A stretch of DNA of 64,000 bases from Sabellastarte sp. h YS-2021 (taxonomy: Eukaryota > Annelida > Polychaeta > Sabellida > Sabellidae), in NCBI GenBank assembly GCA_964017235.1, contig OZ024936.1, positions 29,534,040-29,598,039 on the forward strand, given 5' to 3'. The translations under genes and the position numbers were made by a program. The number at the start of each line of letters is the position of its first letter. Position 1 is the first letter of the stretch. Below, in pieces: positions 4,501 through 63,524 of the stretch. The notes beneath the pieces are model-generated. The model was given only the letters and a program-made list of their open reading frames with translations. It was not told the DNA's origin and ran no database searches.

Positions 4501-4529
4501 ACTTTAGATTAAATATAACAAACATCAGT

Positions 4530-4690: not shown

Positions 4691-4699
4691 ACCGACATA

Positions 4700-15720: not shown

Positions 15721-15734
15721 TTATTAAAATAAGA

Positions 15735-16664: not shown

Positions 16665-16862
16665 GAACATCCTTATGTGATTATCAAGGACTCGGGGGAG
16701 GCTGGCAATGATAAATTCACTGGCTTCATTCCAGAACTGCTGTTGCAAATTGGTGATAAGATCCAAATGGGTTACAATCTGCGTCTTGTACATGACGAGA
16801 AGTATGGCGAGAAGGACAACAACAACAACTGGAATGGCATGGTGGGACAGCTGCAGCAAAAA
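16665..16862 (+). CDS. iGluR-like gene, exon b (ligand-binding lobe S1, first half)
   Basis: A 66-codon exon, phase 0 at both ends, with a TAATCTAG acceptor and a GTAAGA donor. The product starts EHPYVIIKDSGEAGND and continues with FTGFIPELL and a lysine/aspartate-rich KYGEKDNNNNWNGMVGQL segment. This is the canonical order of AMPA/kainate S1: ExPYV, then GNDxFxGxxxDLL, then KYGxxxxxxxWNGMVxxL. A prokaryotic amino-acid-binding protein would lack the WNGMV signature. The asparagine run before the tryptophan is longer than in most relatives. It ends QQK and joins without phase change to the exon at 51997 across about 35 kb. Confidence 0.93.
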
Positions 16863-42854: not shown

Positions 42855-43706
42855 TTAGGTCTTTTTCTTCTCCTGTGATTCTTTGCTGGGAGAATGTCGC
42901 TCTGAGGACAAAGATCGACTCCACGATCTTTTGGATCTCCTGTCACCATATGACCTCTTCGAAGAAGACGATGGACTTCTTGAATAATGACGGCTGTTGC
43001 TTCTATGATCTCTGTGATGATCCCATGACTCTGAACGTGAGCGAGATTTAGAGCGTGTGTATGAACGGGTTCTTGATCTACTATACCTTCTACAATATCT
43101 GCAAATCTTAGCTCGATTCCTTCGGCTGCAGCCACAATCACTGTCATAGTCTATACTCCTTGTTCTGGATCGATGCCTTCGGCTATGACAACTGGAGTGA
43201 GAAGATCGGCTAGAATACCTTCGAGACCCCCGGTGATGATGACCACCAGAATAGGGTGAGCATCTGCAATCATGGTGTTTACAATAGTAACATGCTTCTC
43301 TGGATCTTGAACTACTACTGCGTGAGGATTTTGATCTCCTACTGGATTTGTAAGATCTATCCGCAAAGTCGTTTTGGCCAGTAAATTTAGTATCTCCCTT
43401 TAATGTGTAACATGTCTCGCCTTTGGTATTGGTGGTGTTAGGCAGGAGTGGTCTTGGCTGAGTTCTCTTCTTGCCAGATGAATGTTCTACCTTAACTAAT
43501 GAGCCGCCAATTTTCTTCCCTTGCATGGCTATCACCGCATCCTTGGCATCTCTTGGATCCTTAAATTCTACAAAGGCAAACCCAGGAGGATTTCTAGCCA
43601 CCCAGATGCTGCTGATTTGCCCGAAATAGCTGAAAGCCTCTTCTAAATCTGCTTCAACAACTTCTCGTGGTAAGTCACCAATGTAAATCTTAGTTTCTAC
43701 AGGCAT
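42855..43706 (-). CDS. SR-type splicing factor (RRM plus Arg/Ser domain), intronless, nested in iGluR intron
   Basis: A 283-residue open frame. The start is the ATG at 43706, in good context (GACACCATGCC), with an in-frame TGA at about 43730 showing the N-terminus is complete. Residues about 5-80 form an RNA-recognition motif with RNP2 (IYIGDL) and RNP1 (GFAFVEF); the ARNPPGFAFVEFKDPRDAKD stretch is the hallmark of the SRSF3/SRSF7 group. The rest is an SR/RS domain with many Ser-Arg dipeptides, ending KESQEKKKT. Such proteins bind exonic enhancers in nuclear pre-mRNA splicing. SRSF7 has one CCHC knuckle; this protein instead has Cys/His-rich patches (CYYCKHHDCRC and CGCSRRNRAKICRYC) within the RS region. 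It has no introns and lies antisense in a 35 kb iGluR intron, so it may be an old retrocopy. No poly(A) remnant was recognised. The open frame suggests selection, but expression is unproven. Confidence 0.85.
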   Translation of the reverse strand: MPVETKIYIGDLPREVVEADLEEAFSYFGQISSIWVARNPPGFAFVEFKDPRDAKDAVIAMQGKKIGGSLVKVEHSSGKKRTQPRPLLPNTTNTKGETCYTLKGDTKFTGQNDFADRSYKSSRRSKSSRSSSSRSREACYYCKHHDCRCSPYSGGHHHRGSRRYSSRSSHSSCHSRRHRSRTRSIDYDSDCGCSRRNRAKICRYCRRYSRSRTRSYTRSKSRSRSESWDHHRDHRSNSRHYSRSPSSSSKRSYGDRRSKRSWSRSLSSERHSPSKESQEKKKT

Positions 43707-45199
43707 GGTGTCCTTTGAATCTTTCACTCAAACAATGTAAACAGACAGTTATCTATGAGGCCGTTTTACACTGAGTGCAAAACTACTATTGAGGATGACA
43801 TTGAAAAATTTATCCAACCAGCACAATATTCTAGTCCCAATATATTATTGTGCACTTCAAATATCTTCCACGCAATCTGTTAATCCCTTCTTTTTTTAGT
43901 TAGTTTATAAAGCTTTATTATTAAAAGTCTGACATTCCAGTAAATTCACAGAATAGGCTCCCTCACTGGCAATATCAATGTTTTCATACACACACAATTC
44001 TAGCAGCCAAACTTCCATCAATCCACAGAAGCATCTAGCATGACCTTTCACGCAAGTTAGTTTAGTTTAATCATAGTTGCTTCCTTGTTAAACTTGTTTA
44101 TTTAGAAATGATCTCTGAACTGCCTTATTACACAAACTGTCTACATTGCAGAAGGCTGTCCCTATTTCAGACACAGTAAATCTTTTGTGCCCAGCCTCCC
44201 TACACGTTTTACATTGGGTTTTGCTGACATGTGTCTATGCCACAGCTGAATCCTTCAAATCAAATAAAGTATGTATCAAGTTTGGGTGTTTGTATGAGCT
44301 TGTGGCTTCCACATGCTCCAATCAATGGCAAACACACTGAAATCAATAAAATCGGACAGTTCATGTAATTATTCAAGTCATTGCATATCTTCGTCATCTG
44401 TGGTTCAGTAAATAAATTTAAGATCAAGCTTAGACTCCAAATCACTTGATTCTAAGGCACTCCTATAATATAAACCTGTGCTTTTATTAGTTTCATTCTG
44501 GTAAAAAACACTATTTAAATAGCATATATGTCATGTATGTTTTACTTTGTACAGTTCAACTATAAATATTAATTAACATTTTGTTATAGCTCACAACCTT
44601 AAACACAATATAACACCCCAGAAAATCAGGTCTTACCTATTTGTAAGGTGTACATAAACTGTTTCAACTGAAATCACTGACACAGAAAATCAATACTTGG
44701 TTATTGTTGAACTCACAGATGTGTACACTTTTGATATTGATTTTCTTTTAAAAGAAAAATTGAATTGAAAGACGTAGAAACTGGATGGTGAGATTTATGA
44801 AACTAACTCAAAGACTACATTATTTTGTATTATATGTTGTTTGTACCTTCTACATTGGAAGCCAGTATGTAAATGCATTCAAATAATCCAAATCACTTGT
44901 TACTGAAGTATAAAATTCTTGAAAACTGTAAAAGTGGAAATTTTAGACACAACATATACATGGTCCATTGTCCTTTCCTGTAATTAAAGTTGGAATTCCT
45001 AAAAGAATAACAGGGGAAATGATGTTGTTTGTGACATCCAAAAAAGAAAAAAAAATACAGTGTGTCTTCAATAGGAACATGACAAGTCTTCTGGAAAAAA
45101 TCCACATAAAATCAATATAGAAACAAATGTTTCTAAAGAAACTAATGACTAACTCAGGGTTATGAAGCTGCTACACTTTTGTGAGTTCTTGCAAGACTA
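43707..45199. other. Region upstream of the SR gene
   Basis: Presumably holds the promoter and any 5' untranslated exon of the minus-strand SR gene. I see no convincing TATA box or splice pair. Confidence 0.35.
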
Positions 45200-46364
45200 G
45201 GGGCCGGTTTCACGAAGCCTCCTTAAGATAAAGGTCACCATAAATTCAAGGATTTCCTTGAATTTCTCCCTCCTTTAAAAATTCTCAGTCTCACAAAGCC
45301 TCCTTCCTCAAAGAAAGGAGACCTTGAAAACTCCCTTAAATTTCAAGGAAGCTAAGGACCTACCTTAAATTTAAGGAAGCATAGACGTAGGAACTGGGGG
45401 GTGGGTGGGCAGAAGGGGCTGTTGCCCCCCAACCATAAAGTTGGGGGGGGGGATATCTTTTCGCCCCCCCCCGCCAACTTTTTGCAATAGAACTAAATTC
45501 CAGTTTTGAAGTTTATGTAAATTTTGACAGGTAACTCAATAATATGTGGTCAAATTACACTTTTACCTTGTTCACTGCTCACATGCACCAAAGATCATTT
45601 TCAGTTAACCTGTCATTGGATTTGTAAAATTCGGTGAACTGTTTCACTTATGCAGACCAAAATCATACATTTTGTAATGTTCTACATTTAATTTACCGTG
45701 TTGCTAATTAGTTAGAACTTGTGACGTGTAATTTCAAATTCACACTGATCGATGGTTTAGCAAAGCAATTTGTCAGCTGATAAGATTTTTCCCAGAAAAC
45801 TCTTCTTTCTTTACTGTGTGTTTATTGGACCTAGCCAGTCCAATGATCATACACCCCCCTCAATTTGGGGATTAACCTTGCTAAAAATAGATCTTAAAGG
45901 AAAAGGTCACAGGTTCTAGAAACCTGTTGTCAAGATATTAGAAATACCTTTCAAATGCAGAGGTGACTATATGTATTTCTATACCCGGACAAGGTCGGGG
46001 AAACTTAGGATTGATGTCCATTAATCCAAATACGACCATTTGAATTTGTATTTTACCTACATGCAAGACATTCTGTAAAATTAACCAAAATAGTTGGTGT
46101 CAAGTCGAGTCGGTGCAATCTAGTTCCTCGCCCCCCCAACCAAAAATTGCTTCCTACACCCCTGGAAAGGGTCCTTCAAGGAATGTTAAATAACTTTAAA
46201 TGAACATTCCTTCCTTCCTTTAGTTTCAAGGAAGACCTTTGATAAGGGGAGTTAAAGGAGGCTTTGTGAAACTGGATTTTCAGGTGGCCTTCCCAAAGGA
46301 ATAAAAATAACCTTCCCTTACTAAATGAGGTCTTTTCCAAACCAGGCTTTTTGAAACCGGCCCC
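45200..46364. mobile_element. Foldback element with GGGGCCGGTTTCA ends, containing a nested insert
   Basis: The left end GGGGCCGGTTTCACGAAGCC is mirrored by the right end TTTTTGAAACCGGCCCC. Each arm carries CTCCTTTAA / TTAAAGGAGG and CTTGAAATT / TTTCAAGGAAG words. A second element appears nested at about 45384-46165, from ACGTAGGAACTGGGG to CTTCCTACACCCCTG, with G- and C-runs just inside. Confidence 0.72.
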
Positions 46365-46599
46365 GGCCTCACGAACCATACTATCCTATACATGCTGGAA
46401 GGGTCACAGGGATATGTGGGCTGGCTCTTTCTTCATTATGTACTCCCCAAATATGAGGTCTCTTTCAGGAATCATAAGGACCATGTTGTCAAACAGAAGT
46501 CAAATACATACAGATACAACCATAATGGAGAGGTGGATCTAAGAATTATGGGGGATCCTTGTTGGCTTTTGACACAGTGGCAATACGTCCATTACCTTG

Positions 46600-47010
46600 C
46601 ACATCCTACAGAAGTTTTAAAATTTCCATGTCTGAATTGGGTACAGTGGGCATGCACAGATGAATGCGAGCATAAGCCAATTAATTTCTTGCTGCGGTAA
46701 CCGAAGGTGTAGTCCACAGTGTATATAAGGTTGTGACTTAGTTGTCTTTTGATGTAACACAGCGGGAGACATAAGGCAAGGGGAGGTAAATGGATGTTTC
46801 GTCACTGTGTCACAAGGTCACATATAAACTTCTGACAGTAGTTGAAGGATATCAGTGTTTCACCAAATGCCTATAACCACAAATTATACCACCTGTAATG
46901 TGAATGCTACATCAAATCTCAGAAGATATGAGGTATTCTGGGAGGCGGTTCTGCCGCCTTGGAAAACCTGTAACCGCGGGATGTACCGCCTGTATAGTGT
47001 GAATGGGGGA
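46600..47010. repeat. Dispersed repeat, also at 58700-59855
   Basis: CATCCTACAGAAGTTTTAAA, CCGAAGGTGTAGTCCACAGT, GTATATAAGGTTGTGACTTA, AATCTCAGAAGATATGAGGT and TAGTGTGAATGGGGG recur in the same order at 58700-59855, where the repeat is split by the 59064-59778 element. Function unknown; a TATATAA word follows the conserved block. Confidence 0.72.
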
Positions 47011-47164
47011 AAAATAAGCTCTCATTTTATAAAAGAGTGGAGAAGACAAGAATGACCAGTCATGAGTACTTGGAACAGAAATACTCATGCGAAATTTTAA
47101 AAACATTTTATATTTGGCACAATTATCTACGATCATCGTAATTATTATACAGACCTTTAAGACT

Positions 47165-47395
47165 GAATTTATTTACTTGGGTTTAATGACACTTTCAACA
47201 CATTGTATAAGTTCATCATGACAAATAACTTTAAGGGCAGAAGAAACCAGTGCATACTAGTTGGTCAAGATTCTGCACTGTAAACTGATGGACACTGGTC
47301 TGTTAGTACCAACTTCCCCATATAGGGTCCAGGTTTTGAACCGTAGACCTCAGAAGTGGGAGGCGAGTGTTTTATCCATGACACCATTGACTAAA
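47165..47395 (-). repeat. tRNA-derived SINE, family 1, diverged
   Basis: TTTACTTGGGTTTAATGACA, GGGCAGAAGAAACCAGTGCA and CAGAAGTGGGAGGCGAGTGT in reverse family order. Confidence 0.78.
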
Positions 47396-47982
47396 AAACA
47401 TTAAAAGTATGACCAATAAGATTAGAGTCAGGACCACATTATATGGGTTGTCAGGAGGGAAGCTCAATTCAATAGAATAGTATTTTATGTAAAAGCTTTA
47501 TTTGTATCTTGAGCAATTTTTGTTGTTGTTTTGTTTATTTTCCAACCTAGTGATCAATATGAAGGTTAACATTTGAAATTTGTACTCTGTTTTCTAATGG
47601 AGTAACTTTCTAAAACATGATTTGTGGAGGTTCTTATTTTTACTTTGTTTAAGATGACTTAAAGTACTTTAAGCGATAAAAGCTGATGACAAAATCATCT
47701 GAAGTTTATTAAAGAGAACAGGTGTTTAAGTCAATCAGGTAAAATTGGGGACGAAAAGAGACAAGAAAAATATTTTACTCAATCAATTGAATTCCACTTT
47801 TACCAATAATTGCATTTTTTCAATGATATTATGCTGATTCATTGACTTACATGCCCTCTTTTTAACTTAAAACTATACAGTATCATCTACATAATTCTAG
47901 TAACAATAATTTAACTTAATACTTTACTTTTAGTGCTGTTTGATGTTCAGAAAATAATTCTAAATATTAGTTTATATTACCA

Positions 47983-48691
47983 CTCAGTAAACATTTTTGG
48001 GTTTTTCAAACGTTGGAAAGAAAATGTTTTGTAAAGTTTAAAAATGATGGGTACGAAAACCATTTATAATAGAATGTTTTTTAAATGTTTTATGTACACC
48101 GTTTATTAAACGTTCAATGATAAATGTTAGAAAAACGCTACAAATGAACATAATAATGTCTGAATAATAATGGGGTCAGAGGTCAAATTCAATATCTTTT
48201 TAAGGTTGCTGACTAATAAAAATAATATTTTTATGTCTAAAATGGTAAACTAGTAGCTTATCTTACCGCCATCTTTGATTGGACATGTTTGAAGGTGAAG
48301 GTTTTATAATCATTCTGAAAATATGGGTTTAAAAAACGGTTTTAAAAAAAAAACATTTGACCAAACAATGTTGTTTAAACATTTTATGTGTACTGATTTT
48401 CAAACATTTCATGATGAATGTTTGAAAAACATTTCCAGCATAAGCTTAATTTCTTCAGTTATTTTATAAATGTTTAAAAAACATTTCCAATCAAACCTAG
48501 TTTCTTGATTTATTTTATAAACATTTAATAAACATTTTCAGTAAAAATTTTTGAAAAAGAATGTTTATTTAACACTGCAGTGTAAAAGTTTACTTGGAAA
48601 CGTTTAGAAAACCATAACCTAGGGTTTAAATGGGTTTTAAAACGTTTTGTAAACGTTTAAACCATTTAAAACGTTTCTAATGTTTACTGGG
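47983..48691 (-). mobile_element. Palindrome-rich TIR element, copy 2 (inverted)
   Basis: Ends CTCAGTAAACATT and AATGTTTACTGGG; the core shows the complement of copy 1 (ATAATGGGGTCAGAGGTCAA; ACCGCCATCTTTGATTGGAC). The repeated AAACGTTT words are as in copy 1. Confidence 0.85.
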
Positions 48692-48807
48692 AATTTTAAT
48701 ACGTTCAAAAATGTACACTATATATGACATCTTAAAGATGGAAGATACAGCTTTTTTGACATGTTCCATAAAGCTGACAATTAAAGGTAATCTTCATCGT
48801 CCCCCGA

Positions 48808-48826
48808 GGGGGGGGGGGGGGGGGCA
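48808..48826. repeat. Poly-G tract
   Basis: An uninterrupted G run of about 18 after CCCCCGAG. Similar runs occur at 15507-15522 (about 16) and 49545-49559. The flanks here (AAAGGTAATCTTCATCG, then CACTCAATAAAAT) recur at about 49770-49820 without the run. Such runs are difficult to sequence, so their length is uncertain. Confidence 0.85.
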
Positions 48827-48938
48827 CTCAATAAAATGATGTGTGACATCTGTTGAAATTGTAATTTGTGTTTGGGAATTGTTAAAGCGGAAAGTATCCA
48901 AATGACAAGATGATTCTCTTTAACACAGTGTATTAAAC

Positions 48939-49259
48939 ATGTGTTGTATTTCAGTGCACACCTTTTCGATTGGAAATATTAATAGGGTGTTCACTAAGTT
49001 GCAAGATCTCAATCCTAGTGTTTTCGATGAACTGGGGGTGTATCCACCCCATTCACCCTCGGTACTAGAGTTAAGTAGCAGTCTTTTTCAAGTCCCAGTC
49101 CCCAAGGCCAATATTCCCCAAAGGGAGCTGTGGCAGATGAAGAAAAGACAACTGCTTACATTTGGTACAAACAGCTGTATTCTTGCGCAGATATTGGTGT
49201 CCTGGGTGTCTGATGGACTGAAGTTGGACAGAGCACATGAATATATCCTTCCAGTGTGA
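48939..49259 (+). other. Unidentified open frame, 106 codons
   Basis: An open frame preceded by TTGTATTTCAG, a possible acceptor, with a mixed, protein-like composition (for example KLQDLNPSVFDELGVYPPHS). I recognise no family, and no plausible partner exon nearby. It could be an exon of an antisense-nested or unrelated gene, a decayed pseudogene, or chance. Confidence 0.2.
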
Positions 49260-49474
49260 TTTCTGAAGTTGAAAGAAAAATAAGAGGGATGATTTCATTT
49301 TTATCCAAGCCCTGTTGTTTGACTTATATACCCGGGAAATGAAAAATGGGGAATATATAATAATCTCGCCCCTTACTCTGGATAATTAGCAACATGAATA
49401 CATTAAAAGTGCCAATCTTTTGTAAAAAGAAAACTATATCTATAACCCTGTAGTGTGCTAATCTGTGAAAAGTC

Positions 49475-49640
49475 AAAGTTGGGATTTTAGGTCACGTTTA
49501 ACAGCCAGGGTCATACTGGGACAAGTCCCTTGCACTGTCACTTGGGGGGGGGGGGGGGACGTTGACAGCCACACAGAGCTGACAGCCTGTGATTTTAAAT
49601 GCTAAACCTGTTAACCGTGAGGCCGCCAGAGGACCTTCAT
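49475..49640 (-). repeat. tRNA-derived SINE, third type, with a poly-G tract
   Basis: AAAGTTGGGATTTTAGGTCA, AACAGCCAGGGTCATACTGG, and TTAACCGTGAGGCCGCCAGA align with 40925-41072. The B-box region contains a run of about 14 G. Confidence 0.7.
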
Positions 49641-50061
49641 ACTAATCTATTATATGTATATAAGTTTAAATAACAACCTTAGTACATACCAACACCTGCA
49701 ATCTTTATGAAATCTCAAAGATGAAAACAGTAGTCCACTTGTGGCAACATATTCTCTATATCTGGAAATTAAAGGTAATCTCCAACCACCCCTGAGGTGG
49801 GGAGGTCAATAAAATTGTATATGCCTAAGGAGAAATGTATACTGACAAAGGTGGTCTGAGGTACACAGAAAAGTAAAGGAATTCTGACACTTGTAGCTGA
49901 CTAAAGCTCAACCCCTAAGTTCAAGTTGACACTATAGAAGAACTAGACTTATATAAGTTTATTAAATAAAACCAGGATACACATAACCACTAATATTGTG
50001 CACAGTCCTTGTACAGTTTTGTAAAAAACAGTTGCTAGTTTCATCGTAAAAGTGTCCATGT

Positions 50062-50334
50062 AAGTGTACGTACACATGTATGCGGCTCACGATGGCCGAT
50101 TTGCGACCGCGACTTTTTTCCGACCTTCTCAATATTTTGTAAACATACACCTAAATTCACTTGTCATCCAATTTTTTCACTCCCAGACCGAAAAAAATCG
50201 CTGTCGCAAATCTGACGTCTGATGTCATAAATCGGACTCAGGCATATGTGAACATAAATAAGAAGGCTTGGAAAATTCCCTGTTGCACATCATACGTCTG
50301 ATATCGTAAGCCGCATACATGTGTACGTACACTT
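50062..50334. mobile_element. 273-bp TIR element with 12-bp duplication
   Basis: Ends AAGTGTACGTACACATGTAT and ATACATGTGTACGTACACTT are inverted repeats that continue to GCGGCTCACGAT / ATCGTAAGCCGC. AAGTGTCCATGT flanks both sides (50050-50061, 50335-50346). No coding capacity. Confidence 0.8.
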
Positions 50335-50346
50335 AAGTGTCCATGT

Positions 50347-51996
50347 GGGCTTCGTATGTGGCAGAGTAAACCGATTTTACAATGACAAAGAAGTGGGCTA
50401 ATAACTGAGAAAATGCATAAGTGTGTGAACACATGTTTCATGAGTACATGGCAGAACACAAACAATAGGAAATTTAAATTATCTTCCCGAATGACACATA
50501 GATTCTACAGAAAAAAATATCGCATGAATGAAGGAGACAATATTATACCAGTGCGAAGCACGAGTAGTATGTTGTCAAACTTCACAAGTGAAACGTAATC
50601 TTCAAGACCGGTAGATTTATATATTTTACAATCTGAAAATAATTTTAGAACCCTCCACTTTACATCAAAATTAAAACTTAAATACGTGTTTTTGCTCTTG
50701 AGAAACAAATTTTACTTCATTTGTTTGTGGTATATTTCATGACCTGTTGGGGCACTCAGTTGTTTCCCCCACTTAAAAATACAGAATTTTATCATTGTAT
50801 TTTATTATGTATGTCTTATACACGTTCGTGAGAGTCAGCGTGTGTGGACATGGGTTTCGGGGTGAAATGACGACTGGGAGTCAGCCAACCTTCGCAACTA
50901 GGGATTCTAACGAGGTTTAGTTATCAGACTTAAAGGAAAGTTAAGGTTAACGTAAGTTCATGCACAAGAAAGAAGTAGCCCTAAAGTTAAGATCACACAG
51001 ATTAAAGATACTTAAACTAAGGTAAACCAATCTCATCTGAGGCTTTACTACGTAAAACCCGATGTTTTGGCATAAGGTGACCATAAACTGTGAACATTTT
51101 CAGAATTTAAGACTGCTATTTGAATTGAAAATTCCGTCAAATTCAGCATTATTTTGAGTGTGTTCTTTATGCATGTTAACGTACTATTCCCTGATAATAG
51201 CCTCGTTTAAGGCTCTTTGTGATAAAGAAAGGCTTCTAGTGTGCATATTATTTTTCTGGTTTGTATAATACCCTGCAACATGTACAGGTGTTTACACAAG
51301 CATACTACAGATACATGCTTGTGTCTTATAAGCCAATATCTCCTAAAATGTACTGATCAGCCAGTGAAGCTGCTGTAAAAATGCCCCCTAATGTCAAACA
51401 ATATGCACACATAAATAAATAAAATAGCTGCTTTTGACACCAAGGTATAAAGGAAGCTGAAAAATCATAGTATATAGGTTTTAAAATAAAAAATATTGGT
51501 GACGGATTTCACTGGAGTGAGGAACTGGCTGAGCAGTAAAGGTGTTTATGAATAGAAAATGCCTTTCCAAAGATTTTTTTGGTGCATATTTGAGCATTAG
51601 GTACTGAAATCCATAAGACAATTTAAGAGATTTGTGGTGTGTAGTTGAGATTACTCCAAACATAATGAACAGATCTCTGTGAAATCTTTTATGGGCATAT
51701 GGCCTGACCAAAGGAAGACTTCATTACATTTCAGGAAATATCTGAATCATATTCTATATACACTACTCTAATGGTGGAGGTCTGCACTCTATGAGTGTTT
51801 TCTGATTTTAAATTTTATCACTTCAAAAGACATCCCCTTTGTTATGTTCCTTTTACCCATAGTAAAATTGAAAAAATATATATGTAACTTGAGTAGGGGT
51901 TTTTCACATTTCCCATAAACATAAATAAAACTGATAATCAGCACACCTCAAGGTTAGTTTTTACAATTTATTTTTCTCATTTGTTTTATTTTTCAG
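50347..51996. other. End of iGluR intron 2
   Basis: No gene recognised. The last 40 bases before exon c form a good pyrimidine-rich acceptor tract. Confidence 0.55.
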
Positions 51997-52137
51997 AAAG
52001 CTGATTTGGCTGCTGCACCAATCACAATATCTGAGGATCGTAAGTCTGTGATTGACTTCACCGAACCCTTCATGGATGTTGGGCTAAGCGTGCTGTACAA
52101 GAAGCCGGGAGATGGCCAGGAAAGGGCATTTGAGTTT
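51997..52137 (+). CDS. iGluR-like gene, exon c (ligand-binding lobe S1, second half)
   Basis: The acceptor is TTTTTCAG. The product begins KADLAAAPITISEDRKSVID and continues FTEPFMDVGLSVLYKKPGDGQERAFEF. This is the conserved end of S1, normally RADLAVAPLTIT..R..VIDFSKPFM..GI..L. The residues that contact the agonist alpha-carboxyl and amino groups are present: Pro at 52018-52020, Thr at 52024-52026 and Arg at 52039-52041. The donor is the least certain border: GTACAA at 52138 is the best family-consistent choice and leaves the exon in phase 0. In typical receptors the next residues enter membrane helix M1; here no such exon follows. Confidence 0.9.
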
Positions 52138-52593
52138 GTACAATTATGTTGCTTTAATATAGTGATTTACATACCAATGGATGTATTTGACCAAAATGCT
52201 TGCCCAAGGCCAAGGAATATTTATTTTACTAATCCGGGCTACCGATTACTTTCAGTAATTAGCATTATAAAGACCGGAAGTGTGCAGACAACCAATAATC
52301 CTACAGTGAGCATGTTTTCATTGTGTATTATCTAAAGCAATAATATACAGATAAACAGTAGTGTGGCCAAAAAAAGTTCACAATAAATAAATATATCTGT
52401 ACTTACAACCAATCTTTACAATAGAAAAAAAAATTGTAATTTATGTGCATTTTAAAGGACAGATGAGCATAATAGACTTGCACTACCATGATTGTTGATC
52501 ATTCCACTGGAAATGCCATCCTTTTTAACCTAGACAAAATATTCACTCTCTGTCTTTATTTCTACATCAAGAATTAATTTTTTTTTATTTATT

Positions 52594-52780
52594 GGCTGTT
52601 AAACGGGAAATCAAACCTCAACTTTGACCTTAAACCTTTGTATGTCATATCATGCAGTGTAATTGGGGGATGGAAGGAAACAATACATCCTAGTTGGGCA
52701 AGATTCTGCACTCAAAACCATGGGTCACTGGCAAGTAACTATCAACTTAGCCATTTCAGTTTGAGCCATGAATAGAACAC
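52594..52780 (-). repeat. tRNA-derived SINE, family 1, strongly diverged
   Basis: Contains ATGTCATATCATGCAGTG, GATGGAAGGAAACAATACAT and CAAGATTCTGCACTCAAAAC, a weathered reverse copy. It lies in the iGluR interval that lacks the pore exon. Confidence 0.6.
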
Positions 52781-53109
52781 TGTCCAACTGATTGTTAATA
52801 AGGAACTTCTATGAATGTTTTTTAAATAATAAAATTATTTATATCCATTTCATTTAAAGTTTATGTTAGTATTATAACGCTTAAAATGGGACTAGCAACA
52901 CTCAGTATTGATCACAAACTAAAAATAATACTTGATTTGACAATTTATTTCTAAGCAAAAAAAACAAGAAAAAAGCTTATTTCATGAGTGGAAAAATTAT
53001 AAATGCACATTTTCTTTTTTAAGACCATTTTATCTAAATTGTCATCTGAGAACATTATATATTACTAGAGTATCAGTATGCATACCACTCTCAACGTACA
53101 TAATAATAA

Positions 53110-53335
53110 GTAAATGAGAAAATCTGTATTTTTTTGGGATCCAGATGGTAATCCAGATGACTCTCATTATTTAATGGGATCTAAGTTAGAACAAGACCCT
53201 TTTATTATTTTTTTTTCAGGGAGATCCAAGCATTACTATTTGCTAACAAACAAAGAGAAAACCGACAAACAGACTAAAAGCCTAAACGGTCATGACGATA
53301 ATACCACCTTGGCGGAGATAATAAAACAGGGATAT
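53110..53335 (+). repeat. Second copy of the 16140-16360 repeat
   Basis: Same word order as at 16140-16360; also TGGGATCCAGATGGTAATCC just upstream. It lies inside the interval lacking the iGluR pore exon. Confidence 0.7.
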
Positions 53336-53811
53336 AATATCAAATATGTGCACCATATCAGTCCAGAAAAAACACCCATGATATTACGTTTTATCATACT
53401 GCTATTTATGAACCATTCACATTACAGGTGGCATTGCCACCAGTTATAGGAATCCACAAACCCTGAAAATAGTGAAGGCTTAAAATTTTATATATTCTAA
53501 AACTTCCCTGTGCATTAACAGGTGAAGCAGGAAGACCAGAGTTTCTTAAATTTACAGACAGAAGTGTATAAGTAATTACAGGAATGAAGCATATAAGAAA
53601 ATGCCATTAAACATAGACAATACCGGTTGTAGTGTGACTGGGGTATAAGTGTAACTTCCAATGCTAATTATTCAAGATGGCGGTTGATACTGGAGCCTTT
53701 TTCTACAGAGACAAGTGGTATAGAACCAGACTAGTAGTTCCATTGAGGAGGACCTTATTAACCATTACACAACTGTATGCCCTTTCTAACAGTGTGAAGT
53801 TTTCCTTTTAG

Positions 53812-53988
53812 CACTTTAGAAGAGCTTGTTGAGATCCCTGACATGAAGTATGGACTTGTGAAAGGCGGCATGACAGAGAACACCTTCAAAGAGTCCACAA
53901 ATGTCACCATTCAAAACCTCTGGCAGAAAATACAAAACCCCAATCAGGGAGAAGGGAGGCTGCCAAACAATGGAGAAGGAGCCACTAA
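53812..53988 (+). CDS. iGluR-like gene, exon d (ligand-binding lobe S2, first half)
   Basis: The acceptor is TTCCTTTTAG and the donor GTAAGT. The frame gives TLEELVEIPDMKYGLVKGGM, then T, ENTFKESTNVTIQNLWQKIQ, and NPNQGEGRLPNNGEGATK with the last codon completed by the next exon. It matches the start of S2 after M3: (D)DLxxQTxIxYGxVxxGST, FFxxS, YxxMW, and EGxxR/K. The usual Gly-Ser-Thr agonist-binding triad reads Gly-Met-Thr. The exon begins with one base of a split codon, so it needs two bases from the preceding exon. Exon c ends in phase 0, so the two cannot be joined directly in frame. Confidence 0.92.
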
Positions 53989-54659
53989 GTAAGTGAAACT
54001 GCAGGGAGGGCAGGGGTACATTAAAAACAATGCATCATGAGAACTTATTCTGTGTATAGTTTTCTTACTATAAAACAAGTCAGCTGATATCAAATAAGTC
54101 AGGTTATACAAAACAAGACATTGATACAAAATAAGTTGTAATACGAACCTTTGCATATTGGTCTTTTACGTAAAAAAAGTTATCAAAAGTAGAACAATAT
54201 CTACAATGAAGATGTTAAAGCACAGTCACTTGTGTGCAGTATAAATCTATTGACAAAGTTCAATACAATTCCATGCTTGTAATTATCAAATTCTAGTCAC
54301 AGACTTTGATGTTGTTTTCCCAAACATTCACCTGCGGCCATTAAATAATGGACCAATCACCACACACTGAAGAACCGTCCTTCATAATTTTGTCGAAAAG
54401 GCACTGACAATGAGAAGACAGGGAAGCATGTGAAACAACCACAGATGGCAAGATACAAGGTCTACTTCACAGTCATAAGGACAAGGTCGTGAAGCCAAAA
54501 ATAATATACAATATATATGAAAATAAAAAAATTTGTTACAACCGCACAGAATGGTGTGAAAAGGCCTTTCAGAAAAAAATACAAATTACAAGTAGAAGAT
54601 GGAGAAGGGGAAACCCTGCATAAATGTTGGGTGATTGTACCTTCCTGCTGTGGTGTAAA

Positions 54660-55625
54660 ATTAAATACATACACCTTTTATTATCTCCCGCCTGTGGCCG
54701 AAGGCCGTGGTCGGGAGATTATAAAACACCTTCCATACGTGTGTGCGTCTGTGCTTCCGTCCGTCTGTCTGTCCATCTGTCTGTTGCTCATGCTTTTACA
54801 TAAACCTTAATATATCATTCAGTTATAAAAAAATATCTTCACCAATTTCGCAGGGAAAGTTTATGGCTATAAAAACCTGTCGGTGCAAAATTTTGGCCTC
54901 ATTTTGAAAAACAAAATGGCCGCCATAGCTAATTGTTTGAAAATCATAAAGGTGCTCTAAATCTTGAAATATTCCAGCTAGCTTCATCAAATTTGCACAA
55001 AAGCTGTATGGCTAGAAACGCTAGCCTCATAGTAATTTTGGCCTAGTGGCCGCCATATCATATGTTTAATGTCAAAGGGGGTTATAATATTAAAAAGACC
55101 TTATATCTCCCCTAATATTGCTCCTAGAGGTTCGGAATGTGAAAACAACTTGTAGGAAGTCATGGCCTGGAAATCTTTTCCAGGTGTTGAATTTGACTTT
55201 TGACCCCTTCTTCAAGTTTAAATGGGGTCATCACACTAAAACATCCTTATTTCTCCCTTATTATTGCTGCTATGGCTTCAGAATGTAAATACACAGCATG
55301 AAAAGTCCTGGCTGCAAATATTTGCCTGAGAAAAATTTTGGCTGTATTTTGAAAAACAAAATGACCGCCTTAGACAATTATTTCAAAATCCTTAAGAAGC
55401 TCTAAAACTTGAAATATTGCTGCCAAATTTGCACAAAAGATATATGGCTAGGAAAAGTTAGCCTGAGAGTAACTTGGCCTAGTTTTGAAAATAAAATGGC
55501 CATCATATCACATGATTAATGTTAAATCAGACATCCTATTAAAAATGCCTTATATTTCCCTTATCATTGCTACTAGGGGTTCTAATGTGAACACAACTTA
55601 AAGGAAGTCATGGCCTTTAGTTGTT
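54660..55625. repeat. Dispersed repeat with terminal hairpin and 436-bp tandem duplication
   Basis: It starts with an ATCTCCCG ... CGGGAGAT hairpin (54679-54716, GGCC pairs inside), then a (GTCC/GTCT)n tract, then two diverged copies of a 436-bp unit (ATTTTGAAAAACAAAATGGC near 54897; ATTTTGAAAAACAAAATGAC near 55333) each ending GGAAGTCATGGCCT. The overall plan (tandem units plus a GTCC/GCCC tract) resembles the 36450-37660 array. Confidence 0.72.
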
Positions 55626-55756
55626 GTTAGTCTTTAATCCATGTCAAAGAACCTAAAACATATACATATCTTGATGTATAGAATAGTATGTACCTTATTG
55701 TGTTCACATTATGATGTACCCCTCTATTCGTGCTGTATTCTTACATTTTCCACCAG

Positions 55757-55893
55757 AGTGAGGGAATCTGATGGGAAGTATGTCTTCATCATGGAGAGCA
55801 CCACGGCAGACTTCTACAAGAACCAGAAACCCTGTGAACTGGATACCCTGCCCATTTTCAAGAAGAACCAGTATGCTTTTGGTTTGCAGAAAG
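55757..55893 (+). CDS. iGluR-like gene, exon e (S2, agonist-binding glutamate)
   Basis: The acceptor is TTTTCCACCAG and the donor GTAAGT. The first base completes the Lys codon begun in exon d; the last base opens a Gly codon completed at 62058. The product contains KYVFIMESTTADFY, the family MEST motif whose Glu (55794-55796) binds the agonist amino group, then KPCEL, whose Cys (55833-55835) normally forms the S2 disulfide. It ends KKNQYAFGLQKG, equivalent to the family KGYGVGTPxGS. Spacing and order are as expected for an intact S2. Confidence 0.93.
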
Positions 55894-56454
55894 GTAAGTG
55901 GGTGGATTATAGGATCTGTCACATTGCATTTGCATTAGGTATTCAATAAATTGTACAATGCCACTTGATGTAAACATCCTTTAAGACTCTGATTCTGCAA
56001 TAATGGCACAGTCCAGTAATATAAGCAGGTGAAACCTTAAACAGCATCCACCAGGAATAGTTATGGCTGAAAGAAGATAATGAAAAAGTTAAGCTTCAGG
56101 TTTGTTTCTGAAAGGTGGTTTATTCACAAATGTGGTGTCCTCATTTGTGATGTTAAATCACGGCTTGATATTCGCTTCTGTAGACTTGTACTCAAGGCCT
56201 GGGAAATACTGATTGCTTGTCTTTATATGATAATCACTACCTGAGCATCCTATTACAATGGGTAGTTTAAAATATGGGGAAAAGGTAATACAGTCAAGAA
56301 TCTGTTTCAACCATTCTCATTGTGTGAATATGCTAACAAAAGCATATGCCAAATTATAATAACACGTAGTACTATTATCATATGCCACCTTATATACACA
56401 AAGTTTTCTTCTCACTAAGGACACAATATAGAACTATCCTATATAAAGTTGGAA

Positions 56455-56790
56455 TTGATCTAGTCTTATCTGAATTGGACTCTTATAGTGCTTAATCTCC
56501 CCGTTATTAAACTGATTCTAGTGTGCATCGGCACAAAAACAGACAACCAAATTATGACGGCAGGGTCAAGTACCACAGAGAATGCCAGGCAGATATTGAA
56601 ACTAAAGTGAAACCAAGTATGCCTTGGTGTAGAGATAGGATTTAAGCTTCTTTCTGGAAAAGGCAATATAGGGGGACACATTTCATCAGGAAGAACATTT
56701 CAAACAATGGGAGCATCAGAAAGTAGAGCCGTTATCAAACTGATTGACAGATCTTTTAGTAAATGGATGAAACTTCGGTACAACAAAGAA
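56455..56790 (-). mobile_element. CR1-type LINE, 3' fragment
   Basis: On the minus strand, remnants of the CR1 C-terminus (PFPERSLNPISTPR, a shifted version of FRKKLKTYLYAKA) precede the 3' signature, seen on the plus strand as CTTATAGTGCTTAATCTCC at 56482-56500. The same order occurs at 24790-25000. Confidence 0.7.
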
Positions 56791-57392
56791 ATGACCAACA
56801 CTCTGACTCTCTTGGTCTATACACGCTATAAAAGATACAATTAGATTTGATACGAGATATTTTTATTTTGAAGAATTCTCCAAGTTTTATCAGATGGCTG
56901 GGTATCATTAGCATACACCAAAGACCTTCAGTAAAAACCACTAGAACTCCCTCCCATTTAACCATTTTGTTCAGTTTAAAGAGGGCTCATTTTAAACAAG
57001 TTATTTTGGATTTAGAGTATGCCTTCAACTGTTTATAAGATGATGGGTCAAATTCATGTAACATTATTGTTGTCTGTGCCTTTGCTTAAGTATGTTTAAT
57101 GGAATATCATAGATTGATAAGACAGGAGATACAAAAACTCTACACAAAGCATGGCATTCCAGATTAGAAACCATTTGCAGAGCACAGACCTCTGGGGGGA
57201 CCATTTCCAAAAACTCAGGATTTTTTTTTTGTATTCAGAATATGATCTGGACTTTTCGTAAAATGCCTTGCCCCACCTACATAAAAATTCCCGACTATCC
57301 ATCCATTGCTTTTAGAGTACAATTTCAGCCAGACAGCCAAAGTCACTGAAAATACATAGAAAATAGAACCTTTGAAAATTGGGAATTCTTTA

Positions 57393-57619
57393 CTTATTTG
57401 GGGTTTTACGTCGCTTTTAACACTGTACAGGTCATATCATGACGGGTAGTTGGAAGGGCAGAGAAAACCAGTACATACAGTTCATCAGGGTTCTGTACTG
57501 TAAACTGCCGACCAACGGCAAGCAACAACCAGCTTTCTCACTTGAGGCCGTGCCGGGAACCAAACCCTGGCCTCAGAGGTGGAGGCGAGAGTGTTACCAC
57601 TCTGCCACTGTGGCCCCTT
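57393..57619 (-). repeat. tRNA-derived SINE, family 1, full length with TSD
   Basis: A full copy from CTTATTTGGGGTTTTACGTC to GTGGCCCCTT, with a 15-bp duplication ATTGGGAATTCTTTA at 57378-57392 and 57620-57634. Confidence 0.92.
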
Positions 57620-57723
57620 ATTGGGAATTCTTTATATTCACTAGAATGATCTGAATATCTTTGAATTTAATCACTTCTTCTTATGACAAGGCTCTGTCAA
57701 TAAAAAAAAATCCAGAGAGATCA

Positions 57724-57942
57724 GGGGCCATATTCTACATCTATACTTAGATAAGGTGACCTTATATCTAAGTAGGGGATGGTTTTTCACGTAAGTTTTC
57801 TTGCACTTATCCACGACGCAAAAGTTAGGGATATTCAGTTTCATCAGTTTCTTACTTTTCATCAGTTTCTTACTTGAAATCTAAGAAACACATGAAATCT
57901 AAGTTAGAAATGATCTAACTTTTGTTGTAGAATACGGGCCCT
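57724..57942. mobile_element. Small foldback element
   Basis: GGGGCCATATTCTACATC at the left against GTTGTAGAATACGGGCCC at the right, with AGATAAGGTGACC and CTAACTTTTG words inside. The layout is as in the larger foldback elements. Confidence 0.6.
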
Positions 57943-58699
57943 TTTTAATCCTTTTCAGAGTAATCGTGAACACAGAACAACAAATCAATGAACACACTCA
58001 AAAACACAACCTGCTTGGTAAAGGTAAATACTAGAAACAATCAAGTGTGACGCTACAAAATACCTCCTACATGCCGAGAAAGTAATAAAAATATGCTTAT
58101 ATTGGCTAATAAAGCTATCACATGCACGTCAGTTACTCGACTTGAATCTCTGTGATGCCCAACTTTATATTTGTTTTTTTCACTTTATTGTGTCTTGCAG
58201 ATATTGAATAGTTTTCGATTTTCAACATTAAAAACAACTAATAAAACTCACATTTAAAGCTTTTTAAACAGCTGATTACCTCTGGACACACAAATATTGA
58301 TTTGAGTAACAGGTGTTCAATAGCTGACAACAAATATACTATTGGTGACACAGCTTTTGCAACATTTATTGCGCAAATGCACAGTGAGTACAAGGACTAC
58401 ATCTATATATGGTAGTGTGTTTTTTTTGCAAAAAACAAAACAAAAAAAAAACACAAAGAAAACAATGAGTAGAGTACTTACGGTTTACATCTCCATATTT
58501 GTCAGGGAAACTTATATGATATCCAGTTGATGGGTCATGAGGAACCTGAATCTGCAAATGCAATGGAAATGTATTTGATTTGCTTATCACAATATCCAAT
58601 ACCCCTTTCACACTGCAGGCCATATAACCCGAAGTAGTTGTAAGTGTTTGACTAAATGTCCCTGTCCTTCAACTACCATCCGATGCCCATATGCGAACT

Positions 58700-59855
58700 T
58701 GTGATACAGTGGCCTGCCCTCCCATTCCTTGAGCATCCTGTAGAAGTTTTAAATGTTTAGAATTTCTGCCTCTGAATTTGGAACCGTGATCATGCGCAAA
58801 TGAACTTTTATATGGTAACTGAAGGTGTGGTCCACAGTTTATATAAGGATGTGACTCGGTCTTGTTTCAGTGTAATACTTTAGTCTGACGGTGACAGAAG
58901 GTGAATGAAGGTAGACAGAGGTTGTCTTTTGGTGACACAAGTTTATATACTACTCTCGTCCTACTGCAATCCTGCTATTTACGGTTGCACACAGTGTCCA
59001 GTCAGTCACCCTGTGTATCATACCTTATGGATACACCAAATCTCGTAAGATATTAGAGCTCCTGGGGCTGGTTTCATGAAAAGTCTCAGTTTGAGACCAG
59101 TTTTGGGCCGAGTCTGGGTCTCAAATCTGAGACTTTTGTCTTGGCTGAGTTTTTGGCTCAAATTGATTTCACAAAAGGTGACTCAGCTGAGACTGGTCTC
59201 AATCATAGTCTCAAGTTTTAAATTTCATTTAAGACACTTCCTTGGTTTGTTTTTTATGCAAGTGCATTTATTTCATCATCATTATCGATTTAAATTGCAT
59301 TAACACTGATAACACATGAAAAAAATTGATATAATATTACTGGTAACAAGCCAATTCTTTGAGACTCAACTGAGACTGAGTCAAGCTTTGAGTCCCCTCT
59401 TGAGACTAGTCGCTTGACAACGGTCAAAAAAGCATGTCAATTCCATTGACTTTTCTTATTATGAATATTGAATATTTAGTTGTAATTAGTAAGCAAAATA
59501 AAAATATAATATTTCAAGATTCAACAAATTCATTTTCATGAAAATTATATTGCTTTATACACAAGTATTGGATGACAAACTTTGGACTCAAAATTTGAGA
59601 CACCTCCTTGGTGGGCTCAAAATTGAGCCCATGACTGAGCCAAATCTCAAGTTGAGCCTGTTTGTGAAATGCTTTGAGTCTGAGTCCACAGACTCAGCAA
59701 AATATTTACAATATTTGAGCCCAAAGTCTCAGATTTGAGTCTGAGACCAGACTTAAGTCCTTTCATGAAACCGGCCCCTGGGAGGCAGTTCCACGGCTTA
59801 GGAAAACTTCTAACCTGGAGGTATACTGTCTGTAGTGTGAATGGGGTTTAAATGA
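58700..59855. repeat. Second copy of the 46600-47010 repeat, split
   Basis: The left part 58700-59063 and right part 59779-59855 together match 46600-47010 (CATCCTGTAGAAGTTTTAAA, CTGAAGGTGTGGTCCACAGT, GGGAGGCAGTTCCACGGC). Confidence 0.72.
59064..59778. mobile_element. Foldback element with GGGCTGGTTTCATGAAA ends and a 3-bp TSD
   Basis: GGGCTGGTTTCATGAAA at the left pairs with TTTCATGAAACCGGCCC at the right. The arms are made of GAGTCTCA / TGAGACT words. It splits the repeat shared with 46600-47010; comparison with that copy implies a CTG duplication at the insertion point. Confidence 0.78.
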
Positions 59856-60971
59856 TAAGTAGTTGTAACATGGTATGCAATGAAAATATCTGAAAACTGA
59901 GTATTCATTCTTTAAAATATTACACATCACATTTTATATAGCAATAGAAAATATTATATATCACCAGTCTTACACTAGAACCTAATATGCACAGAGGGAA
60001 AGTCTGATATCCCCTTAGATAAAATAATGAAAACATCAAGGAACTGTAGTGAATCGAATTCTAAAGTCACCTTACCAAAGAGATAACAGTATGGAGTACA
60101 TTCCTTTAAGTAAGGATCCTTCGTTTAAGGTTTACTTACATAGAGAAACCATAAAGATATTTTAGTGAATAGCGTTTTAATGTCATTTTACCAGGAGATT
60201 TTCACCTTTTTTACTAACGGAACCTTTAAAATAAAGGAGGGGTTAGTGAACACAGTCCCTAGGCCCTTATTCACTGAACCTCCTATATTTTTAGGAAATC
60301 CTTTGAAATTAAGGATTCCTTGGATTTGTTATGCCTTCATTATTTTGGTATTTAATAAACTCTCTTTAAGGAGCCGACTAATATTTTCTTATTAAAGGAG
60401 ACCTAAACAAATTAGAATGCCTTCTTGTTTTACGGAAATCAGAAACTTTGCTACTCATTAATCATCTTTTAGTGAGAAAACGTTACATAGCACCCAGAAC
60501 TCTTTAGGTTAGCATGTACCTACCTTTCCAATAAAGGAAACTGTTGGTGTATTTGAAATTTTTGCTAACATGTTAATATATGTGTTCTTCTTTACTTTGA
60601 ATATGAGAAAGATCACATTATGACAACAGACCATGTTTGTTGTTTTCCTATTACCTCCTAGTAGTACACTTGAAAGCTCTTAAAGCAATAATGAAGGATA
60701 TATTAGCCAAAAAACAGCAAATCTGTGATTTTATTGCCCTAACTTGGCCAATATAATGGGGAGCCCGGGGAAATGTCGCCAGTTTTTTTAAATCTCTGCA
60801 TATGGTTTACAATTACCTCCCAATACATTTTAATGCTCTAAATGCAACATATACAGAGGTAATAGGGTGGTTCTGATGAATTGGTATAAAAATTGGAATT
60901 CTGATTAGTATAAAAACACTCCTAAATCACTCAATTTCAGTCCAAGTGCTCCCAAAGTCTAATCAACTTGA
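59856..60971. other. Intron with short repeat words
   Basis: At 60060-60420, words such as CCTTTAAAATAAAGGAGG and AAGGATTCCTTGG suggest a decayed foldback element of the GGGGCCGGTTTCA type, but I cannot define its ends. No gene. Also nothing at 55894-56450. Confidence 0.4.
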
Positions 60972-61641
60972 GATATTGATGTTAGGCGCCAACTCGCGGC
61001 AGGGAACAACTCGAGATGTTCCTTGCGCCAACTCGAGGCAGTAAGTTGTGGCAAACATCTTGAGATGTGCACGCCATTTTGAGTTGTGGCTGCATCAAGT
61101 TAATCCCCTTATGTCCAGTACTGGTTAGTAATCACATGGATTGTGACTGGCTGATTATTGAAGCTATATGTGGCTTCTATCTTAAGTTGAGACTGCTCCA
61201 ACTTAATCCTCTAATATATTAGTATGTGTGTTAATAGCTTATACCAAATCACAATCATTTGACTCATTTCACGAAAACAATCTTACATCTGATAGCAATT
61301 AAGAGACAAGCAACTTAAAGAAGTCACCTATTAGACTTCATATTTATGTCAAACAAATCAACAAGAAATAAACCTGAGAAATCCCCGAATGCATTTAAGA
61401 AACATCAATCAGAATAGAAATTTCTGTTTCTTACCTTTGATTATCTACATAACATTTTTTCAGCAGAGATTAAGCTCTACAAAATTATGATTAGATTGAA
61501 TTATAGGTTGAAGTTGGCGCAGCACCCACACAAGATGTGGCAATACATCTCGAGATGTTTGCCACAAGTCATCCTCGCGAGTTGGCGCAAGGAACAAATC
61601 GAGTTGTTCCCTGCCGCGAGTTGGTGCCGAACATTGACATC
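60972..61641. mobile_element. Long-TIR element built of ACTCG palindromes
   Basis: An approximately 100-bp left arm (GCGCCAACTCGCGGCAGGGA .. AACTCGAGATGTTCC .. GGCAAACATCTTGAGATGT) is mirrored at 61510-61641. Within each arm, smaller inverted words (GTTGGCGC / GCGCCAAC, CATCTCGAGATG) add further foldback. The interior (61080-61500) has no recognisable gene. Confidence 0.8.
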
Positions 61642-62057
61642 ATTAACATGAATATAAAATAATACCCCACTGCAGTCTGTGGTTTTTGCTGAGCGGTGGT
61701 GACGAGCACCAAACTAGTGTCCAACAAAATATTTTTTGACCATGACACCTTGATGATGGACTAATATAAGGTGGTGGAAAAATTTTCCCAGGCCTAAGGT
61801 ATTATATGCCAAAAATGGTTTGAATACAGTCAGAGAGTGCCCATTTATAATGGGGATGTTCAAGAGATTCCATAGTCCGGTGATGGATGTGGTTATGAAA
61901 CCTGGTTCAAGAACAAATAAACGGCTTTCCAGGGGACTCTTGATTACTATTCATAGCTAGCCCTTGATAACATGATATATTTTCTTTATAATGGTATCTT
62001 CTAAATAGGGTGTACAACCTCCAGTTGTGGTTCTTAACAAAATCATCATAATTACAG

Positions 62058-62245
62058 GTTCGCAGTACAAAACAGGAATCAACAAAGCCATCAAGGAGCT
62101 GAAAGAAAGTGGAAAGATTCAGGAGCTCAGAGACAGGTTTTGGACGGGAGAGTGTGTACCACGTGACAAGGGGAACTCCGTGCACACCTCTATGACGTCA
62201 GCAAGTCTTGTGTTCCTTGGGTTTCTCCTCTATATGATGTCATAA
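62058..62245 (+). CDS. iGluR-like gene, terminal exon f (end of S2 and C-terminal hydrophobic tail)
   Basis: The acceptor is TAATTACAG. The product starts (G)SQYKTGINKAIKELKESGKI, followed by QELRDRFWTGEC, matching the end of S2 (SxYRDxINxAILxLxExGxLxxLxxKWW..G.C) including the second disulfide Cys at 62153-62155. Normal receptors continue with a linker, the ~20-residue helix M4 and a cytoplasmic tail. Here VPRDKGNSVHTSMTSA is followed only by SLVFLGFLLYMMS and a TAA stop at 62243-62245. A short hydrophobic stretch ending at the C-terminus, preceded by small residues (GNS, TSMTSAS), is the layout of a GPI-attachment signal. No consensus AATAAA was seen in the next ~700 bp. An unrecognised later splice to an M4 exon outside the window cannot be excluded. 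Confidence 0.88.
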
Positions 62246-62942
62246 AGTTATCCTAGGAGAAAACTGGTTAATGTAAGATCAGATGAAAATTCGTAGACTG
62301 ATTGTAATCATTGAAAAGTAATCTTATTGATGATTTCACACGCTTTCAGATACTTGTACCTTCAAATATCGCCCGTGAATTCCAATTGAGATTTCACACT
62401 TTAAATATTGACCTGAATACATTTTTCAAGGGGTACAGCACTATTGATAAAACTAGTGTTTTCCGTTGTGATTTAGACCATGCTGAAAATCGTAAAACTG
62501 AAATAAGAAAACTGCATATTCCTTGTGTGACCAACTAGGATCTTTGATTCAGAAACCAACCATAGTATAAGCAGTAATTTGATTGGCTAATATCATTGTA
62601 CTAAGTTAAAGTAGCAGTTTCACACACCTCTCCGAAATTGAAGTTGGTTGTCTTGTGTTTTTTGTTTGTTTGGATTTTTTGTGCCTGTGTGTGAAGTATA
62701 TTTACACCTTGTGATTGTGTGTCAATGCACATTCTGATAAAATGAAATTTGCGACAATTGCTGCTCCCTGACAAAACTTGGCACACCTTTCAATTTGGCA
62801 AAACATAGAATACTTATCAACAGCTGGTTGTCATTGGCGTAACACCCATGCATTTCAGGAGTGCCCCATACCTTTTGTATCAATGTTATGTAGAAATTAT
62901 ATAATCGCCCCTTCAAAAGCACTATTAATTGATCAGGGCCGG
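62246..62942. other. Presumed 3' untranslated region and flank of the iGluR-like gene
   Basis: Follows the TAA stop. It contains an unidentified 75-codon frame (62311-62538). No AATAAA is visible. The region 63525-64000 likewise shows nothing. Confidence 0.4.
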
Positions 62943-63524
62943 TATTCAAGAAGGGTCTTAGACTTAGCCAGGTCTTAGGCTTAAATGTGGTCTTAAAGTT
63001 GAGACTTTTGTCTCGGCTAAGTTTTGTCTTAAAACCATGTTCACAAAGGGTGACTTAGCTAAGTCCAAGATTATCAAATAACCACAGTGGTTTCCTGTGT
63101 CATATAACCTTTTTTTCTATTCAAACTATACTATTGGTGACATATATCCTTCATTTAATGCATTTTATCTAAGGAAAAGTGCTGTTTTGAAATGGAAAAC
63201 CTTGTTACCACATATAAATTTCCCAAAGACTGCTTTAGTAAGGTATTCTGTATAATTATACTTTATTTACAGCCATTTCAAATTTTGAAGTGGAGAAAAG
63301 TTTATGGCGGCCATATTTAAGTCCTCTTCACAAAATTTAAGCCCACTACCAACCAATCTTAAAGTTGAGTCCTTGGCTAAGCCTAAGACCAGTCTTAAAT
63401 TCTTTGTGAATACCACTAAGCCTAAGACAAAAGTTTTAGCAGTTTCTGGGCAGAAATTTGAGACAAAAGTCTCAACTTTAAGCCTAAGCCCTGGCTAAGA
63501 CCTTTCGTGAACACAGGCCCTGAT
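62943..63524. mobile_element. Foldback element with AGGGCC ends and TTAGCCTAAG words
   Basis: AGGGCCGGTATTCAAGAAGG at the left pairs with CCTTTCGTGAACACAGGCCCT at the right. The arms contain GTCTTAGACTTAGCCAGG and CCTGGCTAAGAC. An internal frame rich in Ser, Lys and Thr at 63304-63498 is repeat-derived. Confidence 0.7.

Follow-up and report, generated by a model that had tools for sequence, protein, structure and literature searches.

Evidence for a family of pore-less ionotropic glutamate receptor ligand-binding-domain genes in the annelid Sabellastarte sp.

Introduction

The acetylcholine-binding proteins (AChBPs) of molluscs belong with the Cys-loop receptors. The AChBP of Biomphalaria haemolymph is described, in the excerpted text of PMC3423370, as a soluble homologue of the nicotinic receptor ligand-binding domain (LBD), in principle the LBD of a ligand-gated channel minus its pore. 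The annelid gene described here follows the same principle, but the families are unrelated and the likeness is an analogy only: its Pfam matches, and its PDB matches among those listed, are LBDs of ionotropic glutamate receptors (iGluRs).

With the LBD of AMPA/kainate-type iGluRs the gene shares the sequence of an S1S2 clamshell, most of the ligand residues and a cysteine pair, and the best solved matches among those listed are GluA4, GluA2, GluA1, GluA3 and Drosophila CG3822. Unlike those receptors, the family in which we place it has neither M1-P-M2-M3 nor an M4 with a cytosolic tail; no amino-terminal domain was found in the parts scanned, and in one member (L017) a candidate signal peptide leads into S1. 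The engineered GluA S1S2 crystal constructs are similar in layout, a short linker connecting S1 to S2 within about 260 residues, whereas the annelid genes are natural, have linkers of their own and end in a C-terminal hydrophobic tail.

Two further groups bear comparison. Chemosensory IRs resemble four of the paralogues (L012, L015, L016 and L017) in having diverged ligand residues, but are described with a pore and transmembrane segments in the excerpts of PMC2924276 and PMC4890853. Bacterial family-3 solute-binding proteins also have an uninterrupted clamshell, and SBP_bac_3 is the second Pfam match of the gene; unlike them, it has introns, matches Lig_chan-Glu_bd more strongly than SBP_bac_3, and finds iGluRs as its best solved matches among those listed.

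Published surveys, as far as their excerpted texts go, tend to filter out pore-less iGluR genes. PMC6307864 kept a sequence only if at least four residues of SYTANLAAF were present, PMC4890853 used transmembrane motifs as its screen, and all 12 oyster iGluRs of PMC10642201 have Lig_chan; in these excerpts and that of PMC12837371, either a pore or transmembrane motif was demanded or Lig_chan was present in all genes. Among the matches listed from open-access PMC there was no report of GPI-anchored, soluble, decoy or pore-less iGluR proteins, which is no proof of novelty.

Results and Discussion

Five exons encode an iGluR ligand-binding domain

The window, by which we mean the whole stretch of 64,000 nucleotides analysed (C14:29534040-29598039), belongs to a genome assembly of 1.79 Gb in 647 contigs. 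It contains an iGluR LBD in five exons, b to f, amounting to 278 codons with all junctions in frame:

16665..16862, + strand: exon b, S1 start (EHPYVIIKDSG...WNGMVGQLQQK), 3' end in phase 0
51997..52133, + strand: exon c, S1 end (KADLAAAPITISEDR...VLYKKPGDGQERAF + GA), Pfam Lig_chan-Glu_bd 8.8e-10; proposed donor the GT at 52134, phase 2 and weak, from splice enumeration and the joined reading
52134..53811, + strand: c/d intron, pore coding sequence not detected in Lig_chan profile scans
52247-52380: dispersed repeat in the c/d intron
53075-53326: dispersed repeat in the c/d intron
53812..53988, + strand: exon d, S2 start (TLEELVEIPDMKYGLVKGGMTENTF...GEGAT), 3' end in phase 2, no M3 remnant
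55757..55893, + strand: exon e, S2 middle with the E705-equivalent Glu and a conserved Cys (FIMESTTADFYKNQKPCELD)
62058..62242, + strand: exon f, S2 end (GSQYKTGINKAIKELKESGKIQELRDRFWTGEC) and terminal hydrophobic tail SLVFLGFLLYMMS, GPI-signal-like
62243-62245, + strand: stop codon

Exons c to f had been recognised in a preliminary description of this DNA, and they are borne out by their reading frames, by the Pfam match of exon c and by a phmmer search with the joined exons; the positions also agree with the 1674 bp spacing given there between c, as the S1 end, and d, as the S2 start (about 1.67 kb). Exon b, 35 kb from exon c, was located by tblastn with the S1 exons of pore-less paralogues; it has AG and GT at its borders and a Pfam PF10613 match at C14:29550692-29550901. 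Against solved structures, the joined c-f exons returned 367 distinct sequences at E ≤ 0.001, the best being GluA4 (E 1.5e-30, far beyond chance), and their S1 and S2 parts align to the segments of solved iGluRs that flank the receptor pore. The joined b-f protein matches Lig_chan-Glu_bd (1.3e-32) and SBP_bac_3 (4.3e-16), and the same Pfam scan found no Lig_chan (PF00060) in it.

A further exon, a, which should carry the signal peptide and first strand, did not turn up in the 46 kb upstream when signal-peptide and strand patterns were used. No Pfam family, and thus no amino-terminal domain (ANF_receptor), was detected in the + frames of 1700-16701 or, apart from the match at exon c, in those of 38000-52000, in scans that can miss split exons.

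The b/c intron holds a 146-bp tandem array (36635-37535, 6.2 copies) adjoined by an open frame at 37891-38280, which looks to us like a LINE reverse transcriptase. An open + frame of 111 codons at 48924-49256 has no Pfam match in the scanned frames.

The pore module is absent from the window gene

The preliminary description had found no M1/P/M2/M3 coding sequence between exons c and d, and profile searches agree. With stops read as X, the three + frames of 50500-64000 gave a Lig_chan-Glu_bd match at exon c and no Lig_chan match, which leads us to reject a pore exon within the c/d intron. A genome-wide search with Lig_chan to E=10, scoring the best candidates only, returned 58 matches, none of them in the window. 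On this sequence evidence the pore is truly absent from the window gene, and, with pore and M4 both lacking, its predicted product is an iGluR-derived LBD protein and not an iGluR channel.

The same picture would arise from an ordinary iGluR with a pore if the assembly lacked its pore exons, since assemblies can collapse or drop sequence and the c/d intron holds repeats. The exon structure of pore-bearing genes in this genome speaks to this. M3 and the S2 start share one exon in all seven genes read (L001, L002, L003, L005, L006, L007, L008), and M1 and the S1 end share one in seven of the eight judged (L001, L002, L003, L007, L018, L020, L023); in the intronless receptors L047 and L054 the whole receptor lies in one frame. 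The M1 half of this argument is not universal, because in the exception, an NMDA-like gene at C5:65.27 Mb, the M1 exon lies about 5 kb downstream of the S1 end, and coordinates suggest a separate M1 also at C18:84.48, C4:158.4 and C2:52.65 Mb. Exon d, however, begins with no M3, and the loss of just one exon during assembly would hardly explain the gap; the pore is missing at six other loci too (below). We therefore regard loss in assembly as very improbable, and the window gene is best taken as lacking a pore.

A stretch reading AFEF after S1 of the window gene aligns with the pre-M1 region of GluA4, so the loss of the pore at this gene could be more recent.

Exons c and d can be joined in frame

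The preliminary description held that a direct c-d splice must either be out of frame or cut the end of S1. This does not hold: a GT at 52134 (GA|GTTTGT), four bases upstream of the donor considered there, supplies the two bases that exon d needs, and splicing 52134 to 53812 gives ...YKKPGDGQERAF-D-TLEELVE..., in frame and with S1 whole. A direct splice at this site is thus possible. Chance readily yields a phase-2 GT in the 40 nt concerned (3473/5000 shuffles), and on a rough donor matrix the GT donors of exon c are all weak (52095, -6.0; 52134, -5.4; 52138, -6.4), compared with 3.9, 4.0 and 8.6 for the donors of b, d and e.

Other in-frame pairs were enumerated. The best by score, 52280/53820 (-0.2 + 4.3 = 4.1, against -5.1 for 52134/53812), would insert about 50 residues with AAA as the joining codon; the open frame after S1 is long (chance 0.6% by base composition, 4.0% empirically). 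Because 52280 lies within the dispersed repeat 52247-52380, we set this pair aside, and likewise any extension of exon c to the donors 52280 or 52306, both inside the repeat, while noting that exonised repeats exist. The pair 52148/53820 (total -2.7) was rejected as it creates a stop codon, and the remaining non-repeat in-frame pairs score below -5.1 (52095/53812, -5.7; 52162/53825, -7.5; 52183/53825, -8.9; 52138/53825, -13.3).

Copies of a dispersed repeat at 53109-53326, in the c/d intron, and at 16128-16351, just upstream of exon b, are 72% identical, and both carry an acceptor-like T-run followed by CAG.

The weak linker donors, together with the missing exon a, are the reason to retain a second alternative, namely that the window copy is a recent pseudogene of a real pore-less family, which has lost the c/d donor, and perhaps exon a, and yields no protein. 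The 35 kb between b and c and the few pyrimidines ahead of the AG of exon f, read by eye, also fit this alternative. Against it stand five open exons with frame-consistent junctions and AG/GT borders, an in-frame donor at 52134, and the preservation of all checked ligand and cysteine positions save S654. We consider decay of the window copy rather unlikely, if a good deal less so than loss in assembly, and continue with a functional pore-less gene as the preferred reading.

At least seven loci carry S1 and S2 without a pore

Used as a query against the same genome, the joined exons had 29 matches at E ≤ 1, including four window exons. At five loci (L011, L012, L015, L016, L017) the S1 end runs into S2 within one open frame of 249-286 codons, with 26-34% identity to the window query; an S1-start exon is present in the upstream flank of all five, L011 being readable from YEGFL. 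The introns between d and e and between e and f in the window gene split what is one exon in these five paralogues. Searches with L012 (20 matches at E ≤ 0.1) and L011 (21 matches at E ≤ 1) recovered these five and no additional locus with an uninterrupted frame.

A family search with S1 (53 matches, E ≤ 0.1) yielded a seventh locus, C14:45.208-45.214 Mb, where the S1 end is fused to the S2 start in one exon and more S2 exons follow downstream. Used as a query, it returned 10 matches at E ≤ 0.1, three of them its own exons; it matched the five pore-less frames at 3.1e-10 to 0.0011 and two pore-bearing genes at 3.0e-4 and 0.057. Two other candidates, C5:37.03-37.05 Mb and C18:84.48 Mb, were dropped on account of weak pore matches nearby.

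None of the 58 genome-wide Lig_chan matches, best candidates being scored, falls inside any of the seven loci, and the joined L017 protein matches Lig_chan-Glu_bd (7.1e-32) without Lig_chan. Over residues 1-185, L015 aligns as a single stretch to the engineered S1S2 constructs of GluA2/3/4, whereas its alignment to full receptors begins only at residue 40 (best 60 of 188 in both cases). Four of the seven loci are on contig C14 (three of the six other than the window gene; binomial 0.003, computed after the fact).

The best-supported reading of these sequences is that the window gene belongs to a dispersed family of pore-less iGluR LBD genes with at least seven loci in this genome. The preliminary description had offered three options for the missing pore: a pore-less protein, a recent pseudogene or a lost exon. 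The first is now the best supported, because six further loci join S1 to S2 without a pore and none of the seven has a Lig_chan match; the second stays as a rival, and the third has become unlikely.

Descent and selection

In a tree of 15 pore-less and pore-bearing rows, two diverged intronless receptors sit on the pore-less side, so that two changes have to be assumed for the pore-less rows; the seven other pore-bearing rows stand apart at 93/98. In a tree of 13 rows, from which the pore-bearing L007, L047 and L054 were dropped and to which L059 was added, the seven pore-less rows lie on one side of a branch, with weak support (71/80). Two groupings, chosen after the tree had been seen, were compared with it. 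A window gene that groups with the pore-bearing rows is compatible with the data (p-AU 0.294). One that is sister to the AMPA-like gene at C1:118.92 Mb is rejected (p-AU 0.021), which also counts against a normal receptor with its pore lost in assembly. A single loss of the pore in the family is favoured.

Across 15 gene pairs, pS is 0.67-0.87, near saturation, and pN is 0.27-0.52. This pattern is that of long-term purifying selection and is silent about recent decay.

Ligand-contact residues

For the ligand contacts we took P478, T480, R485, G653, S654, T655 and E705, in GluA2 numbering. By alignment the window copy keeps six of the seven equivalents (P478, T480, R485, G653, T655 and E705), and has Met at the position of S654. 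All six aligned rows share the cysteine pair and the equivalent of R485. G653 and T655 of the window copy fit the residue rule at 653/655 for glutamate binders given in the excerpt of PMC6307864.

The paralogues differ. The equivalents of T480, T655 and E705 are gone from L012, L015, L016 and L017, which suggests ligands of another kind. L011 keeps T480, R485 and T655, with Ser in place of G653 and Asp in place of E705. To judge by these residues, the ligands of the diverged paralogues are probably other amino acids, or else carboxylates.

Candidate signal peptides and GPI-like tails

Directly before S1 of L017 lies a candidate exon that reads as a signal peptide plus the first S1 strand, and L016 has a weaker candidate signal-peptide exon. 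C-terminal tails were counted in six genes (the window gene, L011, L012, L015, L016 and L017), with the C14:45.2 Mb locus outside the count. A C-terminal hydrophobic run is present in four of the six by the first criterion (null 88/1641) and in five by a looser criterion set afterwards (null 70/1172). The run in these five ends 0-7 residues before the stop; in the window gene it ends 1 residue before the stop, and there is no M4 with a cytosolic tail. L011 is the exception under the looser criterion, with a weak run (1.84) and 10 residues, including charges, after it.

The tails of five of the six genes look like GPI signals. The hydrophobic run is placed where M4 would begin, and in L011 it is followed by charged residues; the end may thus be something other than a GPI signal, leaving a single-pass protein with a truncated M4 or a fully secreted one. 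Runs that stop so short of the end of the protein, as in those five genes, are unlike the M4 and charged tail of the intronless receptors L047 and L054, and we rate this alternative as distinctly less probable than a GPI anchor, though the most serious of those raised here.

A proposed glutamate-binding protein without a channel

From the kept contact residues, the C-terminal runs and the candidate signal peptide of L017 we infer a secreted, GPI-tethered, non-conducting clamshell that binds amino acids. For the window gene, we hold with moderate confidence that it encodes a secreted and probably GPI-anchored natural S1S2 protein that binds extracellular glutamate and belongs to the pore-less LBD family. 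A signal peptide, for which one paralogue offers a candidate, would direct the pore-less protein to secretion, and a GPI anchor would hold it at the outer face of the membrane. There it would fold as a free clamshell, as the engineered S1S2 crystal constructs do, and would bind extracellular glutamate and gate no current. Its role might be that of a buffer or decoy, or of a ligand-sensing partner of another surface receptor, and in any of these it would resemble the unrelated AChBP in its way of working. With the ion channel absent, the family as a whole probably catches extracellular amino-acid signals rather than passing current.

The wider proposal is that animals evolved extracellular, GPI-tethered glutamate-binding proteins by dropping the iGluR channel, with one copy staying glutamate-type and others being retuned; we would put the chances of this at about even. 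If true, iGluRs would be a second ligand-gated channel family to have shed its pore, and these genes would supply natural soluble LBDs for studying how glutamate is buffered, how ligand preference is retuned and how binding works in the absence of gating.

Other iGluR genes in the genome

Eight pore-bearing matches at C5:12.25-12.39 Mb, C1:86.61-86.66 Mb and C11:28.44 Mb have open frames of 653-733 codons. These receptors are apparently intronless and partly clustered, and two of them (L047 and L054) were read. In a kainate-like gene at C1:133.93 Mb (L058), two similar S2 exons follow one another (L058 1489-1794, 2078-2503, 2754-2987), separated by an open frame made up of His-rich repeat units; we presume that the two similar exons are possibly alternative, in the manner of flip/flop.
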